A stretch of 64,000 bases of DNA from Bacteroidota bacterium (lineage in GTDB: Bacteria; Bacteroidota; Bacteroidia; Chitinophagales; Saprospiraceae), in the NCBI GenBank assembly GCA_029557915.1, contig JAKQHS010000002.1, positions 1 through 64,000 on the forward strand, read 5' to 3'. The first letter of the stretch is position 1, and the number at the start of each line of letters is the position of its first letter. Below, one piece after another: positions 8,298-23,409 of this stretch. Under the pieces are notes generated by a model, which did not search any database, was not told where the DNA came from, and saw only the letters and a program-made list of their open reading frames with translations. Made by a program: the position numbers and the translations under genes.

Positions 8298-9776
8298 CTA
8301 CTCTACCAACCTATTCACCGTATAACAAATCAATTTATTCTCTAGACCCGTCCCTGCATCAGAAACCAAACCGGGGAGGGTGAGTTCATAAATATAACCG
8401 GCCTTGATTTCAGGCAATACTAAAACCAGTTTCTTCCGGTCGGAGGAAATATCGATCCGGTTCACCGGCACCGGTTGCACATCGAACTGGTCTGAACCAT
8501 ATTTCAAATGATATTCATAATAATAATGCCTCAGGCGGAACAGCGCCGAATTCAGAGAAACCGTATCGTGTATGGCTTGGGTAAAAGTTAATTCAAATCC
8601 ATCCTTTTGCAAGCGCATCGCGTGGACTTCCATTGGAGCCCTCCCCGTGTACACCATGCGCTGGATCCCCAGGTCGCCCGCAAAACCATGCTGGGCATGG
8701 CCTACCCAAAGGCTGCCGTCCGGTGCAAAGGCCATGCGGTTGCTGCCCTTGATCAGCCCTTGTCCGTCCAGGAAAGGAATACAGGCACCCTGCAACTGGC
8801 CATCTATTTCTTCAAGCATCACCCTTAAAATGCGTTCCTGGTTCATCTCCCCTATAAAAAACTGGCCGGCGAAGGGGCCGAATTTCCCGGAGGTCCGGTC
8901 TATCACCGGCTGAGTGGGCGAAGCGGCCATGATCCCATGCGGAAACAGCACCGAACCCGGGGTCTTCATGGCCTCCAGTTCTCTGACAGGCAATTTGGAA
9001 GGGTCTCCCCGGCCCCACCCTTCTTTCCATAAAAGGCTGGCGGGATGACCGTAAAAATGCCCCTCTTTGACCTCGTATAAGACGCTGGTGCCCACCCAGT
9101 CCCCCTGGTTGTCCGTGGCAAACAAACGGTTGAGATCATCGATCACCAGGCCATTCGGCGAACGGAAGCCGCTGGCAAAAGGATGTATGGAGCCATCCGG
9201 TTTCAATTGCATGATCCATCCCCGGTATGGCACGGCGGCAAATTTCTGAAGCGGTTTTCCGGGCACCAAGGTCGTATCCAGCGTCCCCCTCACTTCAGGC
9301 ATGACAATGCCATACTCGGAGGCCGTGTTCAGCCCGATGTATAGATTTCCGGCCGTATCGCGAACCGGCCCGTAATTCCATTCGTGGTAATTGCCCGTCA
9401 TGCCAAAGTCATCGGTCACGGTTTCGAAGAGGTCCGCCTTTCCATCCCTATCCGTATCCACCAACCGGGTGAGTTCCGGACGTTGCATGACGAGCATCTC
9501 GCTTTCACTGAGGGCCAGGAGCCCCAGGGGCTCGTGCAATCCGGATGCAAAAACCTTCCAGTCTTCTTTTTTGGGATCGTAGATCATCACTTCTCCCCTT
9601 AGAAAACAAGCCACCAAACGGCCGTCCGGCAAAAATTCAATGGCCCCCGTCTCACCGGTAAGGCCCTCAGGCAGGCGGATCGTTTCGACCCGGTAGGAAA
9701 CATCGGTTGGCTCGGATTCAGGCGCCCTGCGACAGGAGCAAAAGGAAAGTAGCAGTATAAATAACCCAAACCTCAT
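8298..9776 (-). CDS. lipoprotein beta-propeller of glucose/sorbosone dehydrogenase type
   Basis: A 492-residue exported lipoprotein: signal MRFGLFILLLSFCSC with an acylatable Cys, then a propeller with repeated blade motifs (GAIEFLPDGRLVACF, PLGLLALSESEMLVM, TDRDGKADLFETV, ASGFRSPNGLVIDDLNRLFATDNQGDWVG, SNRMAFAPDGSLWVG). This resembles soluble PQQ-dependent sugar dehydrogenase-like and membrane-bound dehydrogenase proteins; I cannot confirm a PQQ site. The C-terminal part (from about residue 390) looks like a beta-sandwich. The frame is open upstream to 9851, but the ATG at 9776 begins the signal sequence and overlaps the previous gene by 4 bp. It is the last gene of the UxuA-like/cupredoxin operon. 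Confidence 0.8.
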   Translation of the reverse strand: MRFGLFILLLSFCSCRRAPESEPTDVSYRVETIRLPEGLTGETGAIEFLPDGRLVACFLRGEVMIYDPKKEDWKVFASGLHEPLGLLALSESEMLVMQRPELTRLVDTDRDGKADLFETVTDDFGMTGNYHEWNYGPVRDTAGNLYIGLNTASEYGIVMPEVRGTLDTTLVPGKPLQKFAAVPYRGWIMQLKPDGSIHPFASGFRSPNGLVIDDLNRLFATDNQGDWVGTSVLYEVKEGHFYGHPASLLWKEGWGRGDPSKLPVRELEAMKTPGSVLFPHGIMAASPTQPVIDRTSGKFGPFAGQFFIGEMNQERILRVMLEEIDGQLQGACIPFLDGQGLIKGSNRMAFAPDGSLWVGHAQHGFAGDLGIQRMVYTGRAPMEVHAMRLQKDGFELTFTQAIHDTVSLNSALFRLRHYYYEYHLKYGSDQFDVQPVPVNRIDISSDRKKLVLVLPEIKAGYIYELTLPGLVSDAGTGLENKLICYTVNRLVE

Positions 9777-10885
9777 TGTCCGGTTTTTATCATGGTGAGG
9801 GTAAATTGGGCAGCCTCTTTTGGATCGAGCTTTAATTGGTTTTCGGCCCATTGTCCTTTATCGCTCTGGTAAACCACTCCATCCCCGGATCCGTGGACAA
9901 ACCAAACCGGCCGCCCTGCTTCCCTGATACGAAATTGCCGGACCAGGCCTACCCCCTTTTCCACTGGGGTGATCCATTCATAAATTTCGGTCCCATTAAG
10001 CAGATAATTAAATTCGGGATAACCCCTTATGAGGCGATAACCCTTAAATTTTACGGCCGGGATGGAATCGGGATGTCCCAGCCGCAAAGGAAAGGGGCTT
10101 TGGTCCCTGTAAAATACCGTGCCGAGAATTTTTGCATGCAGTTCACCTTTGATGGTCCAGTAGTCCGTGAGGTCCAGAAACTCACCCTCCCAGGCATATC
10201 GCAGCCTGCAAGCGCCGGCATCCCAACAATAGGCCAGGTCCTTCGATAAACAAACAGCAATGGCAGCGGGGCCCGCATCCGGCATCAGCACCCGGTAATG
10301 ATAAGGGGGGACCAGGGTATAGGGATGCCCGGAAGGCCTTTGTTTTAGATGGTGGTACTCTTCGCTTTTTCTCCGGTGCTCCGGCACATGAAGATCCGCC
10401 GCCAAACGCGGCATCACTCCATTGGTCACATGCATGGCCCCGTACATGATGTTTCCATGGCCGGGGAAAGTGCATACATAAGGATAAACGCCCGTGGACC
10501 GGGGCGCCCGGAAAACCATGGAATCGGCCTCGCCCGGTTTTAGGACCTGAATGGAATGGAGCACTTCCTCCACTATTGGGATATAGGCCGCTGCCGGACC
10601 GTCTTTGCCCAAAGCGAGGGCGGCAGCTACAATCTTTTCACGGCTGCCTTTCCGTCCGATCACGAGATTGTGCTCCATATCGTCGGTATTGGCCAGCACC
10701 AGTTTGACCCAGCTTCCCGGGTTAACTGCAAAACGCACCAGGTCGTATTGCATCCCGGATACGGCATGGATCTGGATGCGCAGGGTATCCGCCGGGACCT
10801 GACCGGATAGGGGTATGAAACGAATGATAAGGAAGGCAGGCAATAAAACCGCCGAAAAGTAACCCCCTTTGAAATAATTATTCAT
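9773..10885 (-). CDS. exported cupredoxin (azurin-like) with unknown C-terminal domain
   Basis: A 370-residue protein with a signal sequence (about residues 1-29). Residues 30-155 are an azurin/plastocyanin-like domain with type 1 copper ligands in the right order: His72 (DMEHNLVIG), Cys138, His143 and Met147 (YVCTFPGHGNIMYGAM). Residues 170-370 form a second domain I do not recognise (DLAYCWDAGACRLRYAWEGEFLD, GVGLVRQFRI), also seen beside propeller dehydrogenases. The start follows the upstream UxuA-like stop with no gap, and the 3' end overlaps the propeller gene by 4 bp. A periplasmic electron carrier for the propeller enzyme is a reasonable inference. Confidence 0.85.
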   Translation of the reverse strand: MNNYFKGGYFSAVLLPAFLIIRFIPLSGQVPADTLRIQIHAVSGMQYDLVRFAVNPGSWVKLVLANTDDMEHNLVIGRKGSREKIVAAALALGKDGPAAAYIPIVEEVLHSIQVLKPGEADSMVFRAPRSTGVYPYVCTFPGHGNIMYGAMHVTNGVMPRLAADLHVPEHRRKSEEYHHLKQRPSGHPYTLVPPYHYRVLMPDAGPAAIAVCLSKDLAYCWDAGACRLRYAWEGEFLDLTDYWTIKGELHAKILGTVFYRDQSPFPLRLGHPDSIPAVKFKGYRLIRGYPEFNYLLNGTEIYEWITPVEKGVGLVRQFRIREAGRPVWFVHGSGDGVVYQSDKGQWAENQLKLDPKEAAQFTLTMIKTGQ

Positions 10886-12082
10886 CTACCGGACTTCCGT
10901 ATTCGCTGAATCAATCATCCCCTGGATGTAACCGAAAGCCTGGGAAAAGGCCTGGTATCCTCCCGGGTCATCCGGATGGCTGGGTACATGGTCCGGGCAG
11001 ATCGACCAGGTATAGCCGGAATCCCGGAGGATCCGGATCACTTCAATAAAATCCGCCTCGCCTTCATCGATATACACTTCCTGAAAATCGTGCAAACCGC
11101 CTTTGATATTGCGCATGTGGATCTGGCAGATCTTTCCCTTATCGGCGAAATATTTGACGATGGGCAGAAGTTCCTCTTTGGGATTCTTCAGTCCTTCCAT
11201 GATCGTTCCCAGGCAAAGTTGAAAACCGTTGTAGGGACTGTCGACAATGGATTCGTATTTTTTAAGGGAATCGAAGACCGTGCCTGGACCTGCATTCCAA
11301 TTGTCCACGCCCTGGTATCCCCTGGGCAGGCCGGGCGGATCGTAGGGGTGAACCCCAAGACGGAGCTGATGTTCCGCGCAGACCGGAATGATGTTTTGGA
11401 GAAAATAAGTGATCCTTTCCCAGTACTCCTCGTAACCGATGATCCCCCGGCTGCCGGCAGGGAGTTCACGCCAGTTGTCCTCAAGTTTAAACGAATGATA
11501 GCTCGAGCCTCCCCTGCCGTCGACATGCCCGTTTCGGCGAATGGGGATCATGGTCCAGTGCATGGTAACTACTTGGACGCCGACCAGGGAGGCTTTCCTG
11601 ATATTTTCCGTTACTTCCTGCAATTTTTTCTCCCGGTCCCCTCCGGGTTTGGCATAGATGAACCCGGAGTCCATGCGAATGGCTTCCCAAACCATATTTC
11701 CCCGGTCACAATCGTCTTTCCATTTTTTCATCTGGTCCAGGTCCCAGGCTCCTTCCATGATATTGGTCAGGTGGCGAACCCCATGTCTCTGGTGATACTG
11801 GAAATTGCGGGGATTGGTCCAGTTCTTTTGTTTATCATTCCAATTCCAGCCGGGCTCCCCCATCACCGCATGGTAATCACCCCCAACATGATGGAAATGA
11901 TTGATCTTACTTTCTGCCTTTGCCGGTTTATCCGTCAGAGCAGTCAATGGACCCAATAGTCCCGGACCTATCAGTCCCGGACTTATCAGTCCCGGACCTA
12001 GCAGTCCTGCGGCAATGGATTTATGGAAGGAACGACGGTTGAGTTTTTGTGTGGTGGACTTATCTTTCATGGACCGCTTCAT
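10886..12082 (-). CDS. Tat-exported mannonate dehydratase (UxuA)-like TIM-barrel protein
   Basis: A 398-residue protein. The N-terminus has a twin-arginine motif (RRSFHKSIAAG) followed by an odd Pro/Gly-rich stretch (residues 23-43) encoded by a 15-bp minisatellite. The body has UxuA family motifs: VWEAIRMDSG, VHPYDPPG, CQIHMRNIKGG, DEGEADFIEVIRILRDSG and CPDHVP. UxuA converts D-mannonate to 2-keto-3-deoxygluconate in the cytoplasm, so an exported relative probably has a different substrate or is a binding protein. It is first in an operon with the cupredoxin (0-bp gap) and the propeller. A frameshifted remnant of a similar N-terminus lies just upstream. Confidence 0.8.
   Translation of the reverse strand: MKRSMKDKSTTQKLNRRSFHKSIAAGLLGPGLISPGLIGPGLLGPLTALTDKPAKAESKINHFHHVGGDYHAVMGEPGWNWNDKQKNWTNPRNFQYHQRHGVRHLTNIMEGAWDLDQMKKWKDDCDRGNMVWEAIRMDSGFIYAKPGGDREKKLQEVTENIRKASLVGVQVVTMHWTMIPIRRNGHVDGRGGSSYHSFKLEDNWRELPAGSRGIIGYEEYWERITYFLQNIIPVCAEHQLRLGVHPYDPPGLPRGYQGVDNWNAGPGTVFDSLKKYESIVDSPYNGFQLCLGTIMEGLKNPKEELLPIVKYFADKGKICQIHMRNIKGGLHDFQEVYIDEGEADFIEVIRILRDSGYTWSICPDHVPSHPDDPGGYQAFSQAFGYIQGMIDSANTEVR
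11955..12014 (+). repeat. 15-bp in-frame minisatellite in a Tat signal sequence
   Basis: Four successive 15-bp units (for example ATCAGTCCCGGACCT) cover residues 23-43 of the UxuA-like protein and encode a repeated (L/I)(G/S)PGL pentapeptide. The last unit is degenerate. Confidence 0.85.
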
Positions 12083-12228
12083 TTGATTGTTTAAAGCAAA
12101 ATAGGCAGAAAATGGCCAAGCTACGAATCGATATTTTGCGCAGGGCGTCTCGAATTACACGGAATATTTTTTAGTTCAAAAAAAATCCTACCTCTCCGTG
12201 CTCCCCGTGCTCTCCGTGCGCAAAAGCC
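12013..12228. repeat. tandem duplication, unit 1 (5' end and upstream of UxuA-like gene)
   Basis: Unit 1 comprises the first codons of the UxuA-like gene, its leader with a CTATTTTG promoter-like box (minus strand), and CTCCGTG-rich 9-bp repeats near 12193-12219. The same order of segments recurs, diverged, at 12256-12520. Confidence 0.75.
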
Positions 12229-12235
12229 CGTGAGC

Positions 12236-12317
12236 ATATTCACCGATCAGGCCGGTGGCCAGATGTTTATGGAAGGAGCGGCGGGTTTAGTTTTTGAGTG
12301 TTGGCCTTTTCTTTCAT
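12236..12317 (-). pseudogene. remnant of a Tat-signal N-terminus, paralogue of the UxuA-like gene
   Basis: Reading minus from the ATG at 12317 gives MKEKANTQKLN, against MKDKSTTQKLN in the intact gene. A one-base shift then restores RRSFHKHLATGLIG against RRSFHKSIAAGLLG. The frame then ends in the CTCCGTG-rich spacer, and no catalytic part is present. It is the 5' relic left by a tandem duplication followed by loss or replacement of the body. Confidence 0.75.
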
Positions 12318-12520
12318 GGACCCGTTTCAATTGATTGCATTGAACAAAATAGGGAGAAAACAGCTCAAGCTAATATGGATACTTTGCTCAGAGGGTATAA
12401 CCATCCCGCGCCAAGTCGGAGGGTATCGAATGACACGGAATCTTTATGATATTAAAAAGTATCCCAAATCTCCGTGCTCTCCGCGCCCTCCGTGTGCAAA
12501 ACCCCCGTGTGCAAAATCCC
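12256..12520. repeat. tandem duplication, unit 2 (diverged)
   Basis: It contains the frameshifted signal-sequence remnant, a leader matching unit 1 (including the CTATTTTG box, seen as CAAAATAG near 12343, and a stretch matching the ACACGGAAT region) and CTCCGTG/CTCCGCG/CTCCGTGTGCAAAA repeats near 12471-12520 matching those of unit 1. Confidence 0.75.
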
Positions 12521-12528
12521 GCGCACCA

Positions 12529-13473
12529 TCACCACAATCCTTTCAATTTATCATACATCGCCCTGATCGACCGGTGATTCGACACCGTATTCCCTCCCCG
12601 TACCGGATGCTTGCTGAGGTCAATCTCTTTCACGAGGTCCTCCTTTGACTTGCCTGTTTCAATCCCTTTACGCACCTGGGCGAGCATATCCGCGAGGTAA
12701 TCCCTCTGCTGTTTCAGGATCCCAGAACCACCAGGGTCTCCATGCCCGGGAATGACCGTCGAGGCTCCCCAGGAGGCCAGGCTATCCAAAACCCGGAGCC
12801 AGCGATCATAATCCGCGTTTTTATCCGCTACATTATTGCCCCATGGATTTCCGTTTACACAAAGATCCCCCGTGGCCAGGATCTTTTCTTTGGGCAGCCA
12901 GGCCACCGCGTCCCCCGCGGTATGCGCCGGTCCCATAAGGATCAATTCCACCCGGTGCGTACCATCATCAAAAACCATTCGCCTGTCAAAGGTCAGAGAA
13001 GGAAACTCCCTCCGGTAGGGACCCATATCCCCACCGCTGTATGCGGATCGCCGGTCCCATTCCACTTGCCCAAGGGTCCTCATCTCCCCGTCGGTCACCC
13101 TGGAAGCAACCACCACCGCCCCGGAATCTACAAACACGCTGTTGCCCCAGGTATGGTCGTGATGGTAGTGGGTGTTGAACACAAAACGGACCGGTTTATC
13201 CGTGGTTTTCCGGATCTCCCGGAGGATTTCTTCCGCTCCCCAGGGGTAATTGGCATCCACGGCCAGGACATAATCTTTAAAGACCACCCAAAGGCAATTG
13301 GCGGACTTTTTCTGAAGTTCATCACCGAAGTAATAGAATACCCCGGGAGCCAGCGCCTGAACGGGACGGGATTGGGCGTTTAAATAGAAATTGTTCACCA
13401 AGAACAGGAACAACAGCACACCCTTTACTTTGAAAAAAGGAATCGTTATTCTATCCGCTTGTTCCATATTCAT
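12529..13473 (-). CDS. secreted metallo-beta-lactamase-fold hydrolase
   Basis: About 314 residues. A hydrophobic segment near residues 10-33 (VKGVLLFLFLVNNFYLNAQ) acts as a signal sequence. Zinc-site motifs of the MBL fold are all present: NTHYHHDHTWGN, MGPAHTAGDAV, ILATGDLCVNG and VIPGHGDPGG. These resemble class B beta-lactamase/quinoprotein-relay-type hydrolases; the substrate is unknown. The frame is open to 13509, but those extra codons are translated palindromic repeat, so the start is taken at 13473 (MNMEQ) or 13467. It is the third gene behind the 2H phosphoesterase and CadD-like genes. Confidence 0.85.
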   Translation of the reverse strand: MNMEQADRITIPFFKVKGVLLFLFLVNNFYLNAQSRPVQALAPGVFYYFGDELQKKSANCLWVVFKDYVLAVDANYPWGAEEILREIRKTTDKPVRFVFNTHYHHDHTWGNSVFVDSGAVVVASRVTDGEMRTLGQVEWDRRSAYSGGDMGPYRREFPSLTFDRRMVFDDGTHRVELILMGPAHTAGDAVAWLPKEKILATGDLCVNGNPWGNNVADKNADYDRWLRVLDSLASWGASTVIPGHGDPGGSGILKQQRDYLADMLAQVRKGIETGKSKEDLVKEIDLSKHPVRGGNTVSNHRSIRAMYDKLKGLW

Positions 13474-13506
13474 AGATATGCCAAATTTTCGAAATGGGGC
13501 ATATCT
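13474..13506. repeat. palindromic AGATATGCC repeat, copy 2
   Basis: A 33-bp imperfect palindrome (left arm AGATATGCCAAATTT, two mismatches in the right arm) nearly identical to the left half of 8216-8250. It exactly fills the gap between the CadD-like stop and the MBL start. Confidence 0.85.
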
Positions 13507-14102
13507 CAATTTAAAATCCCGAAAGCCCCGCTCTCTGCAAGAATGTAAAGTCCCAAAACAATCAGGATCAATGGGGCGAGGATATGCCCATATTTATCAG
13601 CAGCTTTGGATATAATGGGGTGCCCCGCCAGGTATTTGGCAGCCAGGCACCACAGGAAGGTCATGATGATAAAGACGCCCACCGTCATCCCCTTTCCCTC
13701 CCAGCCCATCGCGGCGAACAGGGGGACGTAGACCCCGGTATTGTCGCCCCCGTTGGCGATCGTGACCCCTGCAACGGCAAGGACATTGCCCATATTATTT
13801 TGCATTGGCTCTGCAAAGTCGATTTTTACCTCCTGCTCTTTCTTCCTGAACAGGCGCCATAAGCTTTTTAAACCCAAATAAATAGGGAAAAGACCAAGGA
13901 GTCCAAGGTATGCCGGATCCATCCAGAGACCCACGAGGGAAAGGGCTAGGCTCAGTCCCGTAAGGGCAAGAATCCCCAGATACTGACCAACTATGATTTC
14001 CAGGGGCATGTACCTTTTATTTCCAAACCACATACTGAGGATGAACAGATCGTCGATGTTGGTGGATGCGAAGGTGAGGATGCCGGTGAGGATCAGGTCC
14101 AT
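13506..14102 (-). CDS. CadD-family (cadmium resistance) membrane transporter
   Basis: A 198-residue polytopic membrane protein with five to six hydrophobic segments. The opening MDLILTGILTFASTNIDDLFILSMWF and the repeat-like AGVTIANGGDNTGVYVPLFA are the family signature (N-D-D in helix 1, N-GGDN in the second half). The family is named for cadmium resistance in Gram-positives and belongs to the LysE-like exporters; the ion here is not known. The frame extends upstream to 14147, but the ATG at 14102 gives the conserved start and overlaps the upstream gene by 10 bp. Confidence 0.85.
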   Translation of the reverse strand: MDLILTGILTFASTNIDDLFILSMWFGNKRYMPLEIIVGQYLGILALTGLSLALSLVGLWMDPAYLGLLGLFPIYLGLKSLWRLFRKKEQEVKIDFAEPMQNNMGNVLAVAGVTIANGGDNTGVYVPLFAAMGWEGKGMTVGVFIIMTFLWCLAAKYLAGHPIISKAADKYGHILAPLILIVLGLYILAESGAFGILN

Positions 14103-14605
14103 GGGCGGCAGATTGGAAAATGTTCGACAACCTTCCAGGGGCCCCATTGCTCCTGTTCAATCAGGCTGACGGTGTCAAAGTTCAAAACAATGGGCAATGC
14201 GACAACCCTGATCTGCCGGAAAATTTCATCCGTACAGCATGAATTCCTGGGATGCATCAGGGTGATATGGGGTCTGTGATTGCGGGGGATGTCAATGATT
14301 CCGGTCAATACGGCTTTTCGTAAATCATCAAACCCCGGATTCCCTATAAGGCCGGGAAGGAGTACCCCCTTACCATCCTCAAACCGCTCCACAGGCCCGA
14401 ATTCAATCCGGAGCGGCCCGGGGAGAATGATGGATCCCAGGTTTTTTAAGACCTTTTCAAGGGGTTCAATCTCGTCTTCCCGGCATAAGGTTATATGAGC
14501 GGGGATAAGATTGAATTGTTCGGGATTAAAAGCAGCCCGGATTTTTTCGATCATTCCATTCTGGTCAGAAATAAAGAGGGTCAATTGCCGGCGGCTCTCT
14601 CGCAT
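14093..14605 (-). CDS. 2H phosphoesterase / 2'-5' RNA ligase-like protein
   Basis: A 170-residue protein with the two HxT motifs of the 2H superfamily: HITL in LIPAHITLCRE (near residue 37) and HITL in RPHITLMHPR (near residue 112). These proteins act on 2'-5' or cyclic phosphodiester bonds in RNA or nucleotides; the substrate here is not evident. It is the first gene of the unit with the CadD-like transporter (10-bp overlap) and the MBL hydrolase. There is no signal sequence, so it is cytoplasmic. Confidence 0.8.
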   Translation of the reverse strand: MRESRRQLTLFISDQNGMIEKIRAAFNPEQFNLIPAHITLCREDEIEPLEKVLKNLGSIILPGPLRIEFGPVERFEDGKGVLLPGLIGNPGFDDLRKAVLTGIIDIPRNHRPHITLMHPRNSCCTDEIFRQIRVVALPIVLNFDTVSLIEQEQWGPWKVVEHFPICRPWT

Positions 14606-16582: not shown

Positions 16583-17971
16583 ATGCTAAGAATAAATCAG
16601 GAACTCACCTTAAACGACCTCAAGGCCAAAATATCCGCTTTCTGGGACCTTTCCGGTGGAAAAATCAGGGCCCTTGAAAAGGAATACGACCCCTCCAAAG
16701 GGTCTCCCGTGTTCACCGCGGCCGGAAAATATACCACCCGGGGATGGACCGAGTGGACCCAAGGCTTCCAGTTTGGGTCGGCACTTCTCCAATACGATGC
16801 CACGGGAGAAGATTGGTTTCACAACATCGGCAGGGACCGTACGCTCGGATTCATGGCCCCGCATATCAGCCATGTAGGCGTGCATGATCACGGATTCAAC
16901 AATGTAAGCACCTACGGCAACCTCCTCCGCCTGATGCAGGAAGGCAAAACGCCGTACAATGAATGGGAAAAAAATTTTTATGAACTGGCCCTTAAAATAT
17001 CCGGGGCGGTCCAGGCCAGCCGGTGGACTAAGATCAAAAACGGCGGATTCATACACTCTTTCAACGGGCCCCATTCCCTTTTTGTGGATACCCTTCGTTC
17101 CTGCCGGGCCCTGATCCTCAGCCACCTGTTGGGGCATGAACTCCAGGCTGAAAACGATATCCGGATCAGTTTACTGGACCGGGCTTTCCAGCATATCCGG
17201 GCAACGGCGGACTATTCCGTGTTTTATGGCCAGGGACGTGACAGTTACGACACCTGGGGTCGCACCGCCCATGAATGTATTTTTAATACGCGGGACGGGA
17301 ATTACCGCTGTCCCAACTCACAACAGGGGTTTTCGGGATTCACTACCTGGACCCGCGGACTGGCCTGGGCGATGTGCGGTTTCTCCGAACAGCTTGAATT
17401 GCTCAAAGAATTATCCTCCGATGAAATTTTGATTGCAGGGGAGAGAGAACTGATTGAAGCCATGATCCTGAAAGCCGCCCGCGCCACCTGTGATTTTTAT
17501 ATCCAGAATACCACGACCGACGGTATACCCTACTGGGACACCGGAGCGCCGGGGCTTGTAAAAATGGGTGATTATCTCTCCCGGCCGGCCGAGCCGTATA
17601 ACGATCATGAACCGGTGGACAGTTCTGCTGCCGCTATTGGATGTCAGGGGCTCCTGCGTTTTGGCCTCTACCTCACCGGTAAAGGCGATGAGGAGCTGGG
17701 TACCCATTATTGGCAGGCCGGCCTGACCGTATTGAATACCCTGCTGGACCAGCCTTATCTGAGCTTAGATGCCGGACACCAGGGCTTGCTCCTGCATTCC
17801 ATCTATCACCGTCCGAACGGTTGGGACTATGTCCCGGCGGGAAGTAAAATACCTTGCGGAGAATCGAGCATGTGGGGCGATTACCATATCCGCGAAGTCG
17901 CCTTATACGTTCAAAAACTTCTCCGCCAGGAACCTTATTACGCCTTTTTCAAGGCCGTTAAAAAAGACTGA
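16583..17971 (+). CDS. GH88-family unsaturated glucuronyl hydrolase
   Basis: A 462-residue cytoplasmic enzyme (no signal sequence) of the (alpha/alpha)6-barrel family GH88, which hydrates and splits terminal unsaturated uronic acid from oligosaccharides made by polysaccharide lyases. Motifs: TTRGWTEWTQGF, GVHDHGFNNVSTYG with candidate catalytic Asp102, SLFVDTLRS with candidate Asp169, FSGFTTWTRGLAWAMCGF, EPVDSSAAAIG and GESSMWGDYHIREV. It is first in a plus-strand run; the next gene begins 2 bp after its stop. No lyase or SusC/D pair is nearby, so the oligosaccharide must be made elsewhere. Confidence 0.9.
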   Translation: MLRINQELTLNDLKAKISAFWDLSGGKIRALEKEYDPSKGSPVFTAAGKYTTRGWTEWTQGFQFGSALLQYDATGEDWFHNIGRDRTLGFMAPHISHVGVHDHGFNNVSTYGNLLRLMQEGKTPYNEWEKNFYELALKISGAVQASRWTKIKNGGFIHSFNGPHSLFVDTLRSCRALILSHLLGHELQAENDIRISLLDRAFQHIRATADYSVFYGQGRDSYDTWGRTAHECIFNTRDGNYRCPNSQQGFSGFTTWTRGLAWAMCGFSEQLELLKELSSDEILIAGERELIEAMILKAARATCDFYIQNTTTDGIPYWDTGAPGLVKMGDYLSRPAEPYNDHEPVDSSAAAIGCQGLLRFGLYLTGKGDEELGTHYWQAGLTVLNTLLDQPYLSLDAGHQGLLLHSIYHRPNGWDYVPAGSKIPCGESSMWGDYHIREVALYVQKLLRQEPYYAFFKAVKKD

Positions 17972-17972
17972 G

Positions 17973-18797
17973 ATGAGCAGGCTGACGGATTATTCAAGGC
18001 TTTGCATCCATACCATCACGACTAAACCCTGGAGTATTGAAGAAGCCTGTGGAAATTTTTCAGATGCCGGCGTCAAAGGCATCACGGTATGGAGAAATGC
18101 ACTGGAGGGAAAGGCCCTCATGGCTACCGGCCGGATGATCCGGGACCGTGGGCTGCAGATCGTCTCCCTTTGCCGGGGAGGTTTTTTCCCATCCATTGAT
18201 GCGGTAAAGAGAAGCCTGGCCCTCGAGGATAACCGAAAGGCGATTGATGAAGCCCATGCCCTCGGAGCCCCTATGATCGTGCTGGTCTGCGGAGCCGATC
18301 CGGGACAACCACTGCAAGAGTCCCGGAAACAAATCCGGGATGGAATACAGGAAATCCTTCCCTATGCGCGGGAGGCTGGCGTAAAACTGGCCATCGAACC
18401 GCTTCACCCGATGTACGCGGCCGACCGTTCCGCCATAAATACCCTGGCCCAGGCTAATGAAATGGCAGCAGCCATTGATTCGCCCTGGGTGGGAGTGGCT
18501 GTGGATGTGTATCACCTTTGGTGGGATCCCGATCTGGAAACGGAAATAAAAAAATGCGGGCGGATGAATAAGTTGTTCGCTTTCCACATCTGCGACTGGA
18601 AAACAAATCCGGAGGACCTGCTCAACGACCGGGGACTGATGGGGGAAGGCTGCATCGACCTGCCCTTGATCCGCACCTGGATTGAAGCTGCAGGTTTTAA
18701 TGGTTTTATCGAAGTGGAGATCTTTTCAAACCGGTATTGGGCCATGGACCAGCACCGCTTTCTTTCAGAGATAAAAGAAGCTTATTTGAACTGTTAA
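17973..18797 (+). CDS. sugar phosphate isomerase/epimerase-type TIM barrel
   Basis: A 274-residue cytoplasmic protein of the xylose isomerase-like/AP endonuclease 2 family. Typical elements: GVKGITVWRNALEG, AHALGAPMIVLVCG, AREAGVKLAIEPLHPMYAADR (metal-ligand Glu region), VGVAVDVYHLWWDPDL, LFAFHICDW and GFIEVEIFS. These correspond to the divalent-metal site of hydroxypyruvate isomerase/IolE-like enzymes. An upstream extension of the frame to 17769 lies inside the GH88 gene and is not real; the ATG at 17973 sits 2 bp after the GH88 stop, indicating tight coupling. Confidence 0.85.
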   Translation: MSRLTDYSRLCIHTITTKPWSIEEACGNFSDAGVKGITVWRNALEGKALMATGRMIRDRGLQIVSLCRGGFFPSIDAVKRSLALEDNRKAIDEAHALGAPMIVLVCGADPGQPLQESRKQIRDGIQEILPYAREAGVKLAIEPLHPMYAADRSAINTLAQANEMAAAIDSPWVGVAVDVYHLWWDPDLETEIKKCGRMNKLFAFHICDWKTNPEDLLNDRGLMGEGCIDLPLIRTWIEAAGFNGFIEVEIFSNRYWAMDQHRFLSEIKEAYLNC

Positions 18798-18816
18798 CCT
18801 AACAAGCAAACAGAAT

Positions 18817-19977
18817 ATGAAACAACATAAGATAGGGATCATCATGAACGGCGTAACCGGAAGGATGGGCACCAATCAGCATCTGATGCGTTCGATTGCC
18901 GAAATCATCAAACAGGGGGGGGTGAAAACGGGTGCGGATGAAGTGATCATCCCCGACCCCATCCTGGTTGGGAGGGACGAAAATAAACTCGGCCAGCTCT
19001 GCAACCGTTCGGGGGTGGACCGTTTTACCACCGACCTGGACCTGGCTTTGTCGGATGAACACAACATCATCTATTTCGATGCCCAGACGACGGGCCGGCG
19101 GGCGGCAGCGGTGCGTAAAGCGGTCCGTGCCGGCAAACACATATACTGTGAAAAGCCTTGCGCGGTGAGTACGCAGGAAGCCATGGAACTTTACAGGTTA
19201 TGTACCGATGCCGGCTTAAAAAACGGCGTAGTCCAGGATAAACTCTGGCTGCCGGGCCTTACTAAACTGAAAAGACTGATTCAGAATGATTTTTTTGGAA
19301 GAATATTATCGGTCAAGGGAGAATTCGGCTACTGGGTGTTTGAAGGCCATACCATACCGGCACAGCGACCCTCCTGGAATTACCGCAAAGAAGACGACGG
19401 AGGCATCATCGTCGACATGCTCTGCCACTGGAGGTATGTCCTGGACAATCTTTTCGGCAAGGTCCAATCCGTCTCCTGCCTGGGCGCCACCCATATCCCC
19501 GAGCGGATCGATGAAAACGGCAAGGCTTATGCCTGCACCGCGGACGATGCCGCCTATGCCACCTTCCTCCTGGAAGGGGGGATTGTGGCGCATTTTAATT
19601 CCTCCTGGGCTACCCGCGTGCGGCGGGATGACCTCCTGACCATCCAGGTCGACGGCTCAAAAGGCTCCGCCGTGGCAGGCCTTCGGGAATGTTATACCCA
19701 ACACTATGGCAATACCCCAAAACCCGTATGGAACCCCGATATTGAACAACCCATCCGCTTTTTCGAGGGATGGAGCCGGGTACCGGACCAGGAAAATTAT
19801 GACAATGCTTTTAAAATCCAATGGGAACTCTTCCTGAAGCACGTCGTAAAAGATGAACCTTTCCCCTGGACCCTTCTCGAAGGGGCAAAGGGGGTCCAGT
19901 TGGCAGAGAAGGGCCTGGAAAGCTGGGAAAAAAGAAGGTGGGTGGAGGTGGAAGATTTGGAGGTGGGTGGTGGGTAG
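18817..19977 (+). CDS. Gfo/Idh/MocA-family oxidoreductase (cytoplasmic)
   Basis: A 386-residue NAD(P)-dependent sugar oxidoreductase. N-terminal Rossmann start IGIIMNGVTGRMGTNQ (a variant of the usual GxGxxG), the family CEKPCA motif near residue 111, then the C-terminal alpha/beta domain (GGIIVDMLCHWRYVLDNLFG, FEGWSRVPDQENYDNAFKIQWELFLKHV). Probably oxidises or reduces a keto-sugar or uronate in the GH88 locus. The last ten residues (EVEDLEVGGG) are encoded by a low-complexity GGTGG-rich stretch that runs into the 7-bp array, so the C-terminus may have been extended by repeat growth. Confidence 0.85.
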   Translation: MKQHKIGIIMNGVTGRMGTNQHLMRSIAEIIKQGGVKTGADEVIIPDPILVGRDENKLGQLCNRSGVDRFTTDLDLALSDEHNIIYFDAQTTGRRAAAVRKAVRAGKHIYCEKPCAVSTQEAMELYRLCTDAGLKNGVVQDKLWLPGLTKLKRLIQNDFFGRILSVKGEFGYWVFEGHTIPAQRPSWNYRKEDDGGIIVDMLCHWRYVLDNLFGKVQSVSCLGATHIPERIDENGKAYACTADDAAYATFLLEGGIVAHFNSSWATRVRRDDLLTIQVDGSKGSAVAGLRECYTQHYGNTPKPVWNPDIEQPIRFFEGWSRVPDQENYDNAFKIQWELFLKHVVKDEPFPWTLLEGAKGVQLAEKGLESWEKRRWVEVEDLEVGGG

Positions 19978-20025
19978 TGATTGGTGGTCAGTGGTCAGTG
20001 GTCAGTAGTCAGTAGTGAATAAAAC
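19978..20025 (+). repeat. 7-bp period array (CAGTGGT/CAGTAGT)
   Basis: At least four heptamers starting immediately after the Gfo/Idh/MocA stop codon. Confidence 0.85.
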
Positions 20026-20035
20026 TGTAATCACA

Positions 20036-20080
20036 AAACAATTTTACAATTCGACAATTCAGCAATTCAACAATCACAAA
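20036..20080 (+). repeat. 8-bp period array ACAATTCN
   Basis: Five degenerate octamers (ACAATTTT, ACAATTCG, ACAATTCA, GCAATTCA, ACAATCAC) end 3 bp before the SDR start codon. Confidence 0.85.
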
Positions 20081-20082
20081 TC

Positions 20083-20853
20083 ATGTCTAAAACAGCACTG
20101 ATCACCGGAGGTAGCCGCGGTATAGGTTTGGGGATCGCAGTCGCGCTTTCCAGGCAGGGTTTTAACCTGGCCATCAATGGCGTCAGGCCTGAACCGGAAG
20201 TACAGGAAGTCCTGGAGCAGCTCCGGGCCAACGGTAAAGAAGTGATCTACTGTCAGGGTGATATCGCCTCGGAGGAAGACCGCAAGTCCATCCTCGCCAG
20301 GATCAAAGAGCATTTCGGGCGTTTACACATCCTGGTCAATAATGCCGGGGTAGCGCCCAGGGAAAGAAATGACCTACTGAAAACAAGCCGGGAAAGCTAT
20401 GACCACGTGATGGACACCAATCTCAAAGGCCCCTATTTCCTGACCCAGGCTGTGGCCAACTGGATGGTGGAACAAAAAAGCCTGGACCCAACTTATGAAG
20501 CACAGATTATTATAGTAGGCTCCATCTCCGCAACCGTGGCTTCCGTGAACCGGGGAGAATATTGCCTTTCAAAAGCCGGCCTCGCGATGCTGGCCCAGTT
20601 GTTTGCCGTCCGGATGAGTGAATACAATATCCCGGTTTATGAAGTCCGGCCGGGTATCATCAAATCCGATATGACCGCCGGGGTGACCGAAAAGTATGAT
20701 AAACTGATTGCTGGCGGACTGACCTTGCAGCCCAGGTGGGGTACCCCCGAAGATGTGGGCAAGGCGGTGGCGGCCATCACTTCCGGGCATTTCCCCTACT
20801 CCACCGGCCAAATATTTATGGTGGACGGTGGACTGACCCTGTTAAGATTGTAA
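20083..20853 (+). CDS. short-chain dehydrogenase/reductase
   Basis: A 256-residue classical SDR: cofactor motif TGGSRGIG at residues 8-15, NNAG, Ser in VGSISAT and YCLSK catalytic Tyr/Lys, VRPGIIKSDM, and the C-terminal VDGG. It is often labelled 3-ketoacyl-ACP reductase, but its place between two Gfo/Idh/MocA genes in a uronate locus favours a sugar-acid or keto-sugar reductase (KduD-like role). The gap to the previous gene is 105 bp and filled by repeats, so it may be in the same transcript. Confidence 0.9.
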   Translation: MSKTALITGGSRGIGLGIAVALSRQGFNLAINGVRPEPEVQEVLEQLRANGKEVIYCQGDIASEEDRKSILARIKEHFGRLHILVNNAGVAPRERNDLLKTSRESYDHVMDTNLKGPYFLTQAVANWMVEQKSLDPTYEAQIIIVGSISATVASVNRGEYCLSKAGLAMLAQLFAVRMSEYNIPVYEVRPGIIKSDMTAGVTEKYDKLIAGGLTLQPRWGTPEDVGKAVAAITSGHFPYSTGQIFMVDGGLTLLRL

Positions 20854-20884
20854 ATTCGGTTTTTATTAAATAAATCCAACTGCC

Positions 20885-22180
20885 ATGAAAAAAATCAAGC
20901 GACGCGAGGTCCTTAAGTCGGTCCTCCCCGGAGCCCTTGCTTTGACTATGCCCACCATTATACCGGCCCGTGCTTTCGGAGCCAACGAACGCGTCCGGGT
21001 GGCGGTGATCGGTTTCAACAGCCGCGGCAAGGACCATATCAGCAATTTCATGAAACTGGCCAATGTGGAGGTGGCCGGGCTCTGTGATGTGGACAAAAAG
21101 GTCCTCCAGTCCACAGCAGCCGATTTTGAAAAAAAATACGGCAAAAAACCAAAGATCGCCCAGGACATGAGGACCCTCTTTGACGATAAGGACATCGACG
21201 CGGTCAGTATCGCGACGCCCAATCACTGGCATGCCCTGGCTACGGTTTGGGCCTGCCAGGCCGGCAAAGACGTCTATGTGGAGAAACCCGCTTCCCATGA
21301 TTTTAATGAGGGCAGGATCATGATCCGGGCGGCCGAGAAATATCAGCGGATCGTCCAGAACGGCATTCAACTCAGGAGTTCCGCCGCCATCCAGGAAGCC
21401 ATCCAACATTTGCGCAACGGGCTCATCGGCAATGTTTACATGGCCAGGGGAGTCGTCTTTAAATGGCGGCCGGATATCGGTGACAAGGGCAACAGTCCCG
21501 TCCCCGAAGGCCTGGATTGGAACTTATGGCAGGGGCCCGCGGCGGAGCGCCCTTTCAGTGAAAACTATGTGCATTACAACTGGCACTGGTTTTGGGATTA
21601 TGGCAACGGCGACATCGGCAACCAGGGAGCCCATGAAATCGACCTGTGCACCTGGGGACTGGATGTAGGTTTCCCTGATGAGGTTTCCTGCACCGGGGGC
21701 AAGTTTCTTTGGAAGGATTGTAAGGAAACCCCTGAAGTCCTGTCCGCCACCTTTAAGTATCCCAAAGCGGGCAAACTCATCCAGTTTGAAGTCAGGCCCT
21801 GGATGACCAACCGCGAAGATGAACTGGAAGTAGGCAATATATTTTATGGCGATAAAGGCTATATGACCGTCAACTGGTACGATGACTATAAAACCTTCTT
21901 AGGGCAGAAGCGGGAACCCGGGCCCAGCCGCAAAGCCGGGGGCGACCATTATTTAAACTTTATCGAGGCCGTTCGAAGCCGGGATAAATCCAAACTCAAC
22001 GGCCCTATTGAAACCGGGCATGTCTCGGCCGGCATTTCCCACCTGGCCAATATTTCATACCGCCTGGACCGGTCGTTAAAATTTGATCCTAAGAATGAAA
22101 AATTTATCGATGATGCCGAAGCCAATCAAATGTTGTCCCGGAAATACCGTGCCCCTTTTGAGCTCAGCGAAAAAATCTGA
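20885..22180 (+). CDS. exported Gfo/Idh/MocA-family oxidoreductase with Tat signal
   Basis: A 431-residue protein. The N-terminus KRREVLKSVLPGALALTMPTIIPARAFG is a twin-arginine signal, so it would be exported folded with its cofactor. The Rossmann part (VRVAVIGFNSRGKDHISNF), IATPNHWHALATVWAC and VEKPASHDFNEG are family motifs; the C-terminal part has WHWFWDYGNGDIGNQGAHEIDLCTWGL, typical of the large secreted subgroup of Bacteroidota. Related secreted members act on glycosides with tightly bound NAD(H). The next gene (MFS) starts 5 bp after its stop. Confidence 0.9.
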   Translation: MKKIKRREVLKSVLPGALALTMPTIIPARAFGANERVRVAVIGFNSRGKDHISNFMKLANVEVAGLCDVDKKVLQSTAADFEKKYGKKPKIAQDMRTLFDDKDIDAVSIATPNHWHALATVWACQAGKDVYVEKPASHDFNEGRIMIRAAEKYQRIVQNGIQLRSSAAIQEAIQHLRNGLIGNVYMARGVVFKWRPDIGDKGNSPVPEGLDWNLWQGPAAERPFSENYVHYNWHWFWDYGNGDIGNQGAHEIDLCTWGLDVGFPDEVSCTGGKFLWKDCKETPEVLSATFKYPKAGKLIQFEVRPWMTNREDELEVGNIFYGDKGYMTVNWYDDYKTFLGQKREPGPSRKAGGDHYLNFIEAVRSRDKSKLNGPIETGHVSAGISHLANISYRLDRSLKFDPKNEKFIDDAEANQMLSRKYRAPFELSEKI

Positions 22181-22185
22181 GGCTC

Positions 22186-23409
22186 ATGCAGCATAACCAT
22201 TCGACCTGGAGGAATCTCCTGCGCATGCCGGTCCTCGTTGCGGCCCTGGGTTATCTCGTGGACATGTACGATCTCTTTTTATTCAGTGTAGTGCGGGTAC
22301 CCAGCCTCACCGACCTGGGGGTAAGCCAGGATCAGCTGCTTCCCATCGGGGTCAGCATCCTCAACTGGCAGCTTATCGGCTTGCTCATTGGAGGCATCCT
22401 CTGGGGCATCATGGGGGATAAAAAAGGCCGGCTTTCTGTATTGTTCGGATCCATCCTGATGTATTCCATAGCCAATCTGGTCAACGGCCTGGTACAGACG
22501 GTGCCCCAATACCAGGCCCTGCGGTTTATCGCAGGCATCGGACTGGCCGGGGAACTGGGCGCCGGAATTACCCTGGTGGCGGAATTGCTGCCTCAGCGCT
22601 TGAGGAGTTACGGGGCCGTGATCGTTTCCACCATGGGAGTGCTGGGCGGCATCCTCGCTTTCCTGGTCGCGGACCTGTTTGAATGGCGCACCTCCTATTT
22701 TGTCGGGGGCGGCATGGGGCTGGTCCTGCTGGTCCTCCGGATCCGGGTTTTTGAGTCCGGGCTGTTTATCAAGCTTAAAGAAAAAAAAGTGGCCCGGGGA
22801 GACCTGCTGATGATTTTGACCAATGGCAAAAGGTTGCTTAAATATGTAATGGGCATCCTGGTGGGTATCCCAATGTGGTTTGTAGTCGGCGTGCTGATGA
22901 CTTTTTCACCTGAATTCGGAAACGCCCATGGGCTCAGCGGGATCAATGCGGGCAAGGCCGTCATGCTCCTCTTCGGGGGCCAGGCCTTCGGAAATATGGT
23001 GAGCGGGCTGGTGAGCCAGTATTTTCAAAGCCGGAAAATCGGCATAGGGATCTTTATGATCGGATCTTTCCTGACCATGCTGGCTTATATGTTGCTCCCG
23101 GTCAAGACTGAATTTCAGTTTTACGGACTCATCCTGGTGCTGGGCTTCTTCAACGGTTACTGGACTTTATTTATCATTCAGGCCGCCGAATTATTCGGGA
23201 CCAATATCCGCGCTACGGTGGCCACCACCATTCCCAATTTTGTCCGGGGTACCGCGGTCATCCTCACCACCGCCTTTGCGGCTTTGAGGCCCGGCATGGG
23301 GATCATTTCCGGAGGAGTCCTGTTGGCTTCGGCCTCCGTCTTCATTGCCCTGATCGCCCTCTTTTTATTGCAGGAGACCTATCACAAGGATATGAATTAC
23401 GAAGAGTGA
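22186..23409 (+). CDS. MFS sugar/organic acid transporter
   Basis: A 407-residue, twelve-helix major facilitator protein of the inner membrane. The signature loop between helices 2 and 3 is GDKKGRLSVL; helices 4-5 contain RFIAGIGLAGELGAGITLVAELLPQRLR, typical of the sialate/metabolite:H+ symporter-like groups. The helix 6/7 cytoplasmic loop is short. It is the last gene of the GH88 locus and translationally close to the exported oxidoreductase (5-bp gap), so it probably imports the oxidised sugar or the unsaturated oligosaccharide product. Confidence 0.9.
   Translation: MQHNHSTWRNLLRMPVLVAALGYLVDMYDLFLFSVVRVPSLTDLGVSQDQLLPIGVSILNWQLIGLLIGGILWGIMGDKKGRLSVLFGSILMYSIANLVNGLVQTVPQYQALRFIAGIGLAGELGAGITLVAELLPQRLRSYGAVIVSTMGVLGGILAFLVADLFEWRTSYFVGGGMGLVLLVLRIRVFESGLFIKLKEKKVARGDLLMILTNGKRLLKYVMGILVGIPMWFVVGVLMTFSPEFGNAHGLSGINAGKAVMLLFGGQAFGNMVSGLVSQYFQSRKIGIGIFMIGSFLTMLAYMLLPVKTEFQFYGLILVLGFFNGYWTLFIIQAAELFGTNIRATVATTIPNFVRGTAVILTTAFAALRPGMGIISGGVLLASASVFIALIALFLLQETYHKDMNYEE

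Follow-up and report, generated by a model that had tools for sequence, protein, structure and literature searches.

An exported operon joining a UxuA-like barrel to a cupredoxin protein and a propeller: a putative rare variant of a widespread sugar module

What might a UxuA-like barrel do outside the cytoplasm, in one operon with a copper protein and a propeller? The question is raised by three adjoining genes at 8298-12082 of the stretch of DNA analysed here, referred to throughout as 'the window' (64,000 nucleotides; JAKQHS010000002.1, positions 1-64,000). Their products are termed U (the barrel), C (the cupredoxin protein) and P (the propeller). The answer that we favour, tentatively and with somewhat less than even confidence, is that they form an exported redox module, in which P acts as the oxidant of a sugar or sugar acid, electrons pass to the cupredoxin, and U carries out an epimerisation or elimination. 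Judged by its sequences, the operon appears to be a rare variant of a widespread, and barely studied, exported sugar module; its novelty lies in the combination, not in the fold. The anatomy and neighbourhoods described below are observations; the catalytic steps of U, P and C we infer. The features of the locus are the following.

10886..12082, minus strand: U, a Tat-type (twin-arginine translocation) exported TIM barrel of the UxuA/AP_endonuc_2 clan, 398 amino acids (aa) (open reading frame, Pfam, PDB, alignment)
9773..10885, minus strand: C, an exported cupredoxin-DUF6797-like protein, 370 aa (open reading frame, Pfam, PDB)
10421..10798, minus strand: the cupredoxin part of C, spanning about residues 30-155 (aligned with auracyanin A, 2aan, and with azurins)
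9788..10408, minus strand: the DUF6797-like part of C, spanning about residues 160-366 (sub-cut-off Pfam match; relatives with ThuA, 3-keto-disaccharide-hydrolase and PA14 heads)
8298..9776, minus strand: P, a propeller of lipoprotein type (DUF7133/TIGR02604/GSDH-like), 492 aa, that itself has no electron-carrier domain (open reading frame, Pfam, NCBIfam, tree)
11958..12007, minus strand: tandem repeat of 15 base pairs (bp), 3.3 copies, GPGLI-type, in the hydrophobic stretch of the leader of U (sequence)
12242..12479, minus strand: a further, diverged copy of the region upstream of U and of its leader (pieces 72-87% identical to 11996-12203)

Anatomy of the operon

The three genes are tightly packed. 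The TAG of U is followed at once by the ATG of C (10885), a junction of 0 bp, and C and P overlap by 4 bp, the ATGA at 9776-9773 holding both the ATG of P and the TGA of C. The mechanical open reading frame of P begins at 9851, but the ATG at 9776 is the more likely start because a lipoprotein-like leader begins there. The original prediction had placed the genes and junctions correctly, and we add that they lie on the minus strand. It had also taken all three products to be exported, and the leaders, judged by eye rather than by a predictor, agree: U has a Tat-type NRRSFHK motif, C a hydrophobic leader, and P the lipoprotein-like LLSFCSC. The barrel, cupredoxin and propeller identities are likewise confirmed by Pfam matches, to which C adds a DUF6797-like half.

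U matches the Pfam UxuA family (PF03786; E 1.3e-31, residues 215-393) at 110.1 bits, above the gathering threshold of 23.7, and AP_endonuc_2 (PF01261) at E 7.2e-9. Against the UxuA equivalog model, TIGR00695, it scores 54.2 bits, far below the cut-off of 199.55, and the homology lies mainly in its C-terminal half. A sequence search of the PDB returned the mannonate dehydratases 1tz9 (E 3.3e-19), 3ban (E 3.1e-17) and 4eac (E 1.1e-6) and, besides these, no match below E 0.04. A fold search with an AlphaFold model built from four sequences (mean predicted local distance difference test, pLDDT, 59; predicted template modelling score, pTM, 0.64) placed the same three entries best (3ban, 1tz9, 4eac), then 3-epimerases, with the 3-keto-glycoside lyase DgpB-C, a C-glycoside enzyme, at rank 43. 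Residues H245, C290, H322, D364 and H365 align with the conserved UxuA pattern and are candidate metal residues; the first four occupy the positions of the UxuA metal ligands. The cysteine column is replaced in one relative of U (L009). The UxuA motif HPDDPP reads HPYDPP in U, Tyr standing for the first Asp, and although U has a Tyr near the position of the catalytic Tyr of UxuA, that column varies among relatives. The metal site is thus retained, and the pocket is probably different. UxuA resemblance, as originally supposed, holds for the metal residues and not for these other two features. Two further UxuA proteins are encoded elsewhere in the window's genome. The one at L080:6429-7577 is Tat-type exported and more canonical, matching at E 3e-77 and having HPDDPP; the other, from a different contig (L003), is plain and has no leader. 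The 15-bp repeat lengthens the hydrophobic core of the U leader, and the copy at 12242-12479 is probably the remnant of a duplicated 5' end of U.

C matches Copper-bind (E 1.9e-7), and over residues 44-152 it can be aligned to azurins and to auracyanin A (E 2.3e-8). All four type-1 copper ligands are present: H72, C138, H143 and M147. Unlike auracyanins and azurins, C continues into a second half that matches DUF6797 at E 0.013 with the whole protein and E 0.0037 with the C-terminal part alone (16.7 and 18.5 bits, both below the gathering threshold of 24.9); by these comparisons it is a two-domain protein, cupredoxin plus DUF6797-like. At L082:1405-7306, elsewhere in the window's genome, two genes adjoin. 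One encodes a PQQ (pyrroloquinoline quinone)-domain cytochrome c dehydrogenase (L082:1405-3648; PF01011, E 4.9e-154); the product of the other, 1201 aa long, has a weak propeller match and ends in a cupredoxin that shares 45% identity with the one in C.

P matches DUF7133 (E 7.5e-7), falls just under the cut-off of Pfam GSDH (PF07995; 22.8 against 25 bits) and, at E 1.9e-11 and 44 bits, far below that of TIGR02604 (122.2). A 23-row propeller alignment, A1, compared by hhalign with A4, an alignment of GSDH proteins from related genomes, gave fold-level homology (probability 97.9%, E 3.6e-13, 276 columns), and Arg205 of P falls on an invariant GSDH Arg. The relation of P to PQQ soluble glucose/aldose dehydrogenases thus looks like remote homology only. 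Searched as a profile against the PDB, the propeller alignment gave mainly cupredoxins among its best 60 matches. The window's genome has five separate GSDH matches besides the PQQ-domain protein at L082, and PQQ-type enzymes are therefore not foreign to it; the pqqC model has no match there, but likewise none in 14 of 14 control genomes. P also resembles the TIGR02604/DUF7133 proteins of the Planctomycetes-Verrucomicrobia-Chlamydiae (PVC) type, such as Lac161_ORF7: they share the N-terminal propeller family, export, a carrier attached or nearby and, in relatives, an enolase-superfamily neighbour. P differs from them in being a bare propeller below the TIGR02604 cut-off, with no HEAT repeats, and in having its carrier, a cupredoxin, on another gene.

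A recurring gene pair and its changing partners

The pairing of C with P follows a wider pattern. At loci with relatives of P, we repeatedly find a gene A, the product of which has a variable head and, at its C-terminus, a DUF6797-like domain, followed by a gene B, a propeller with or without a carrier. The head of gene A is a cupredoxin in the window and in G086:C29, ThuA in G441, L092 and L093, PA14 in L079, and a 3-keto-disaccharide hydrolase, by Pfam, in L081, L099, L116 and L118. The carrier on gene B is cytochrome c, by Pfam, in L081 and L092, which are the only two of the 20 A1 rows longer than 600 aa that lack a cupredoxin with its copper ligands. Gene A directly precedes a propeller-cupredoxin fusion in 17 of 20 loci (L099-L118; absent in L103, L113 and L115; L105, with an overlapping start, counted by reading), which is not an unbiased rate because the loci were hand-picked, mostly from high-scoring propeller matches. 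A head of the 3-keto-disaccharide-hydrolase kind is indicated in 16 of these 17, by Pfam in the three named above (L099, L116, L118) and by BLAST, as a match to the N-terminal part of the L081 protein, in the rest; none is indicated for L114. The window and G086:C29 instead carry the electron carrier on gene A and have no hydrolase head; Pfam finds no DUF1080/3-keto-disaccharide hydrolase domain in U, C or P. At L115:5167-8166, cytochrome c, PA14 and propeller are joined in one 999-aa chain, which may be the two-gene module in fused form, with a penicillin-amidase-type gene as its downstream neighbour.

In a tree of 36 rows, P of the window pairs with P of G086:C29 (support 100/97), and this pair with a bare propeller of G441 (99/93), within a first group that also takes in the other G441 propellers (90/74). 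A second group holds mostly propeller-cupredoxin proteins, and the cytochrome c protein of L081 (100/100); a third is the cytochrome c group (94/97). The placement of the bare G441 row and of L136 is uncertain because their branches are long.

In G086:C29, where C and P are 47% and 53% identical to those of the window, the place of U is taken by an enolase-superfamily gene (MR_MLE_C, E 4e-11), 3 bp in front of C. Its protein has weak, sub-cut-off NCBIfam matches to L-Ala-D/L-Glu epimerase, o-succinylbenzoate synthase and a racemase, and no match in the PDB. Among 150 genomes of the window's family (its own included, here and below), it has 15 homologous matches in 12 genomes. Eight of the 15 lie directly after a propeller gene, one lies before C-P, one is parted from a propeller by a barrel gene, and five have no matching propeller beside them (G000:C3, G086:C11, G045:C390, G112:C158 and G101:C118), though at G000:C3 a DUF7133-HEAT protein is encoded two genes away. 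Seven loci (L113, L140, L141, L142, L144, L145 and L146) have, in one order and on one strand, a Tat-type AP_endonuc_2 barrel, a cytochrome c-propeller and a Tat-type enolase-like protein. Barrel and cytochrome are identified by Pfam in L113 and by BLAST in the other six; the enolase-like proteins of L113 and L144, having no Pfam match, are so named because they share 46% and 44% identity with the protein of G086, and L143 is cut at the start of its contig. In its order, barrel-carrier-propeller, the window thus has an analogue in a recurring design, though its genes are not orthologous to those of that design. On another contig of the window's genome (L134), a relative 58% identical to the G086 enolase-like protein is encoded near a DUF7133-HEAT protein.

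Distribution of the trio and of U

The original prediction named two outcomes that would refute it. One, a barrel lacking the UxuA residues, is contradicted by the metal residues of U; the other, a lack of joint conservation, applies: the exact trio has no second occurrence in the genomes searched, and the C-P pair occurs in one other genome (G086) among the 150. Separately, propeller matches (E <1e-20) are found in 87 of the 150, cupredoxin matches (E <1e-20) in 29, and U-like proteins (E <1e-40) in four, three of which, from other genomes, are 38-39% identical to U. Across the phylum, U has matches in 2 of 296 genomes, one of them the window's own; in the phylum of G441, it has matches in 2 of 337, G441 included. 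No relative of P or U was found in viral contigs. The original prediction was thus partly supported, right on anatomy and general direction and wrong on conservation; the periplasmic sugar-acid module that it proposed survives as an exported redox role on sugars or sugar acids, supported by the neighbours of propeller and U relatives.

A scan for U in a named genome collection gave three loci (L007-L009), in metagenome-assembled genomes (MAGs) labelled Verrucomicrobia (57% in the best segment), Opitutae (57%) and Gammaproteobacteria (39%), in none of which C or P lies beside U. At L007, in G441, a DUF2911 gene follows the nearest relative of U. After it comes, on the same strand as that relative and two genes downstream of the latter, a cytochrome c-GSDH gene (L007:4294-5034) truncated where the contig ends. 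Elsewhere in G441 there are relatives of P with 40-45% identity. Facing away from the U relative are, at L008, an oligogalacturonate-lyase-like gene (PF14583, E 1.4e-15) and, at L009, an MFS gene whose best NCBIfam match, below cut-off, is a D-galactonate transporter model. At L076, L077 and L095, but not L078, GntP permease genes lie next or close to genes for Tat-type UxuA relatives of the 38% class. Genes of the enolase superfamily or for altronate/galactarate dehydratases also occur in the vicinity, and such neighbourhoods hint at exported sugar-acid enzymes.

What the operon might do

In the reading that we favour, P, anchored by lipid, would work outside the cytoplasm, oxidising a hydroxyl group on a sugar, a glycoside or a sugar acid. 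Electrons would go to the cupredoxin, which the DUF6797-like domain of C would keep beside P. U, with a divalent metal, would polarise a carbonyl or carboxylate, abstract a neighbouring proton and so epimerise or eliminate, filling a slot where other loci may have an enolase-superfamily protein, ThuA, a 3-keto-disaccharide hydrolase domain or a different AP_endonuc_2 barrel. The tight junctions, the copper ligands of C, the UxuA-type metal residues, the homology of P with GSDH, and the recurring pairing of propeller, DUF6797-like domain, carrier and enzyme all support this reading. Chemistry of a comparable kind is known: an exported DUF1080 protein has been proposed as a 3'-ketolactose hydrolase acting after oxidation by LacABC (PMC9007349), and Mn-dependent TIM-barrel beta-eliminases are described as acting on 3-keto-glycosides (PMC10628242). 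These pathways (LacABC with DUF1080; AtOGE/PuCGE) resemble the operon in oxidation before cleavage, in the DUF1080-type partner of its relatives and in a Mn TIM-barrel lyase. They differ in that the putative oxidant here is a propeller served by a copper carrier and the barrel resembles UxuA, and any chemistry at C3 would be hypothetical for the operon. Among the papers listed by literature searches, none describes this module.

Several observations weigh against this proposal. U occurs elsewhere without C or P and so is not co-conserved with them, and no transporter gene adjoins the operon. The enolase-like gene before C in G086 has, as called, no visible leader, and its NCBIfam matches weaken the idea that such a partner acts on sugars. 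His131 of P misses the invariant GSDH His by one column and the GSDH acidic pair (D342, E343) is unmatched, so that 'PQQ-type', as P was first described, stands for the remote homology and is weak for the pocket; folded alone, P gave an unusable model (pLDDT 34, pTM 0.23) that allowed no inspection of it. Lastly, a purified TIGR02604-HEAT-cytochrome c protein, Lac161_ORF7, acted on lactose with release of glucose (Km 1.8 mM), and the authors of that study read it as a beta-galactosidase, a hydrolase; its gene and one of the enolase superfamily possibly form an operon (PMC5342196).

That result, with no cofactor mentioned in the sections consulted, and the partial match of PQQ residues could be taken to mean that P is a non-redox, glycosidase-like propeller, and that the cupredoxin serves some other purpose, copper delivery for example. 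We consider this quite improbable: two unrelated carriers, copper and heme, are repeatedly attached to such propellers, and electron transfer therefore fits better than copper delivery. Nor is it likely, if a little less improbable, that U is only a passenger, a barrel acquired by horizontal transfer that came to lie before a C-P pair independent of it, sharing a transcript and nothing more. Its sporadic distribution, its nearest relatives in Verrucomicrobia MAGs with no adjacent C or P, and the diverged duplicate of its leader region would suit such an origin. The 0-bp junction with C argues otherwise, as do the enolase-superfamily gene that stands in its place in the one further genome seen with C-P, the recurrence of the barrel-propeller-enolase order, and the redox sugar dehydrogenase gene near U at L007; composition, moreover, gives no signal of horizontal transfer for U (G+C content 51.9%, against 51.3% for the window).

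An alternative closer to known UxuA makes P a PQQ aldose dehydrogenase that forms an aldonate outside the cytoplasm, with copper taking the electrons and U dehydrating the aldonate in the UxuA manner. The metal residues of U, the mannonate dehydratases at the top of its structural matches, the cytochrome c-GSDH, oligogalacturonate-lyase-like and galactonate-type transporter genes near its relatives, and the GntP permease and dehydratase or enolase-superfamily genes near the UxuA relatives described above all point this way. We nonetheless hold it to be rather unlikely, given HPYDPP in place of HPDDPP, the variable Tyr column, homology confined mainly to the C-terminal half, the score far under the equivalog cut-off, and the need of an exported dehydratase for uptake of its product, for which the operon has no adjoining transporter gene.

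A broader proposal, of which the favoured redox module would be one case, is doubtful, though not far-fetched: a general exported plug-in system, in which one family of propeller dehydrogenases, held by a DUF6797-like adaptor, and a heme or copper carrier work with varied, unrelated partners, the UxuA-like barrel having been recruited as a periplasmic or surface eliminase that acts on what the propeller has oxidised. If true, it would give the DUF7133/TIGR02604 propellers and DUF6797-like domains a testable function, and would imply a copper-linked, oxidative breakage of sugars outside the cytoplasm by enzymes that ordinary glycoside-hydrolase annotation overlooks. The propellers are common in the family, yet TIGR02604, DUF6797, DUF7133 and related model names turned up in a single paper of the library searched by full text.

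Some features of the window remain to be recorded. Promoter-like sites number 4, against 4.5 expected by chance, and terminator-like sites 10, against 5.7. On the minus strand, a metallo-beta-lactamase-fold protein with a leader by eye is encoded at 12529-13509, its best NCBIfam match being a quinoprotein-relay hydrolase model at a score far under cut-off; its gene overlaps by 4 bp that of a Cad-family transporter (13506-14147, minus strand). On the other strand, 4.5 kb from the operon (16583-23409, plus strand), lies a sugar cluster that encodes a weakly matched, sub-cut-off GH88-like protein, an AP_endonuc_2 barrel, two Gfo/Idh/MocA oxidoreductases, an SDR protein and an MFS transporter.

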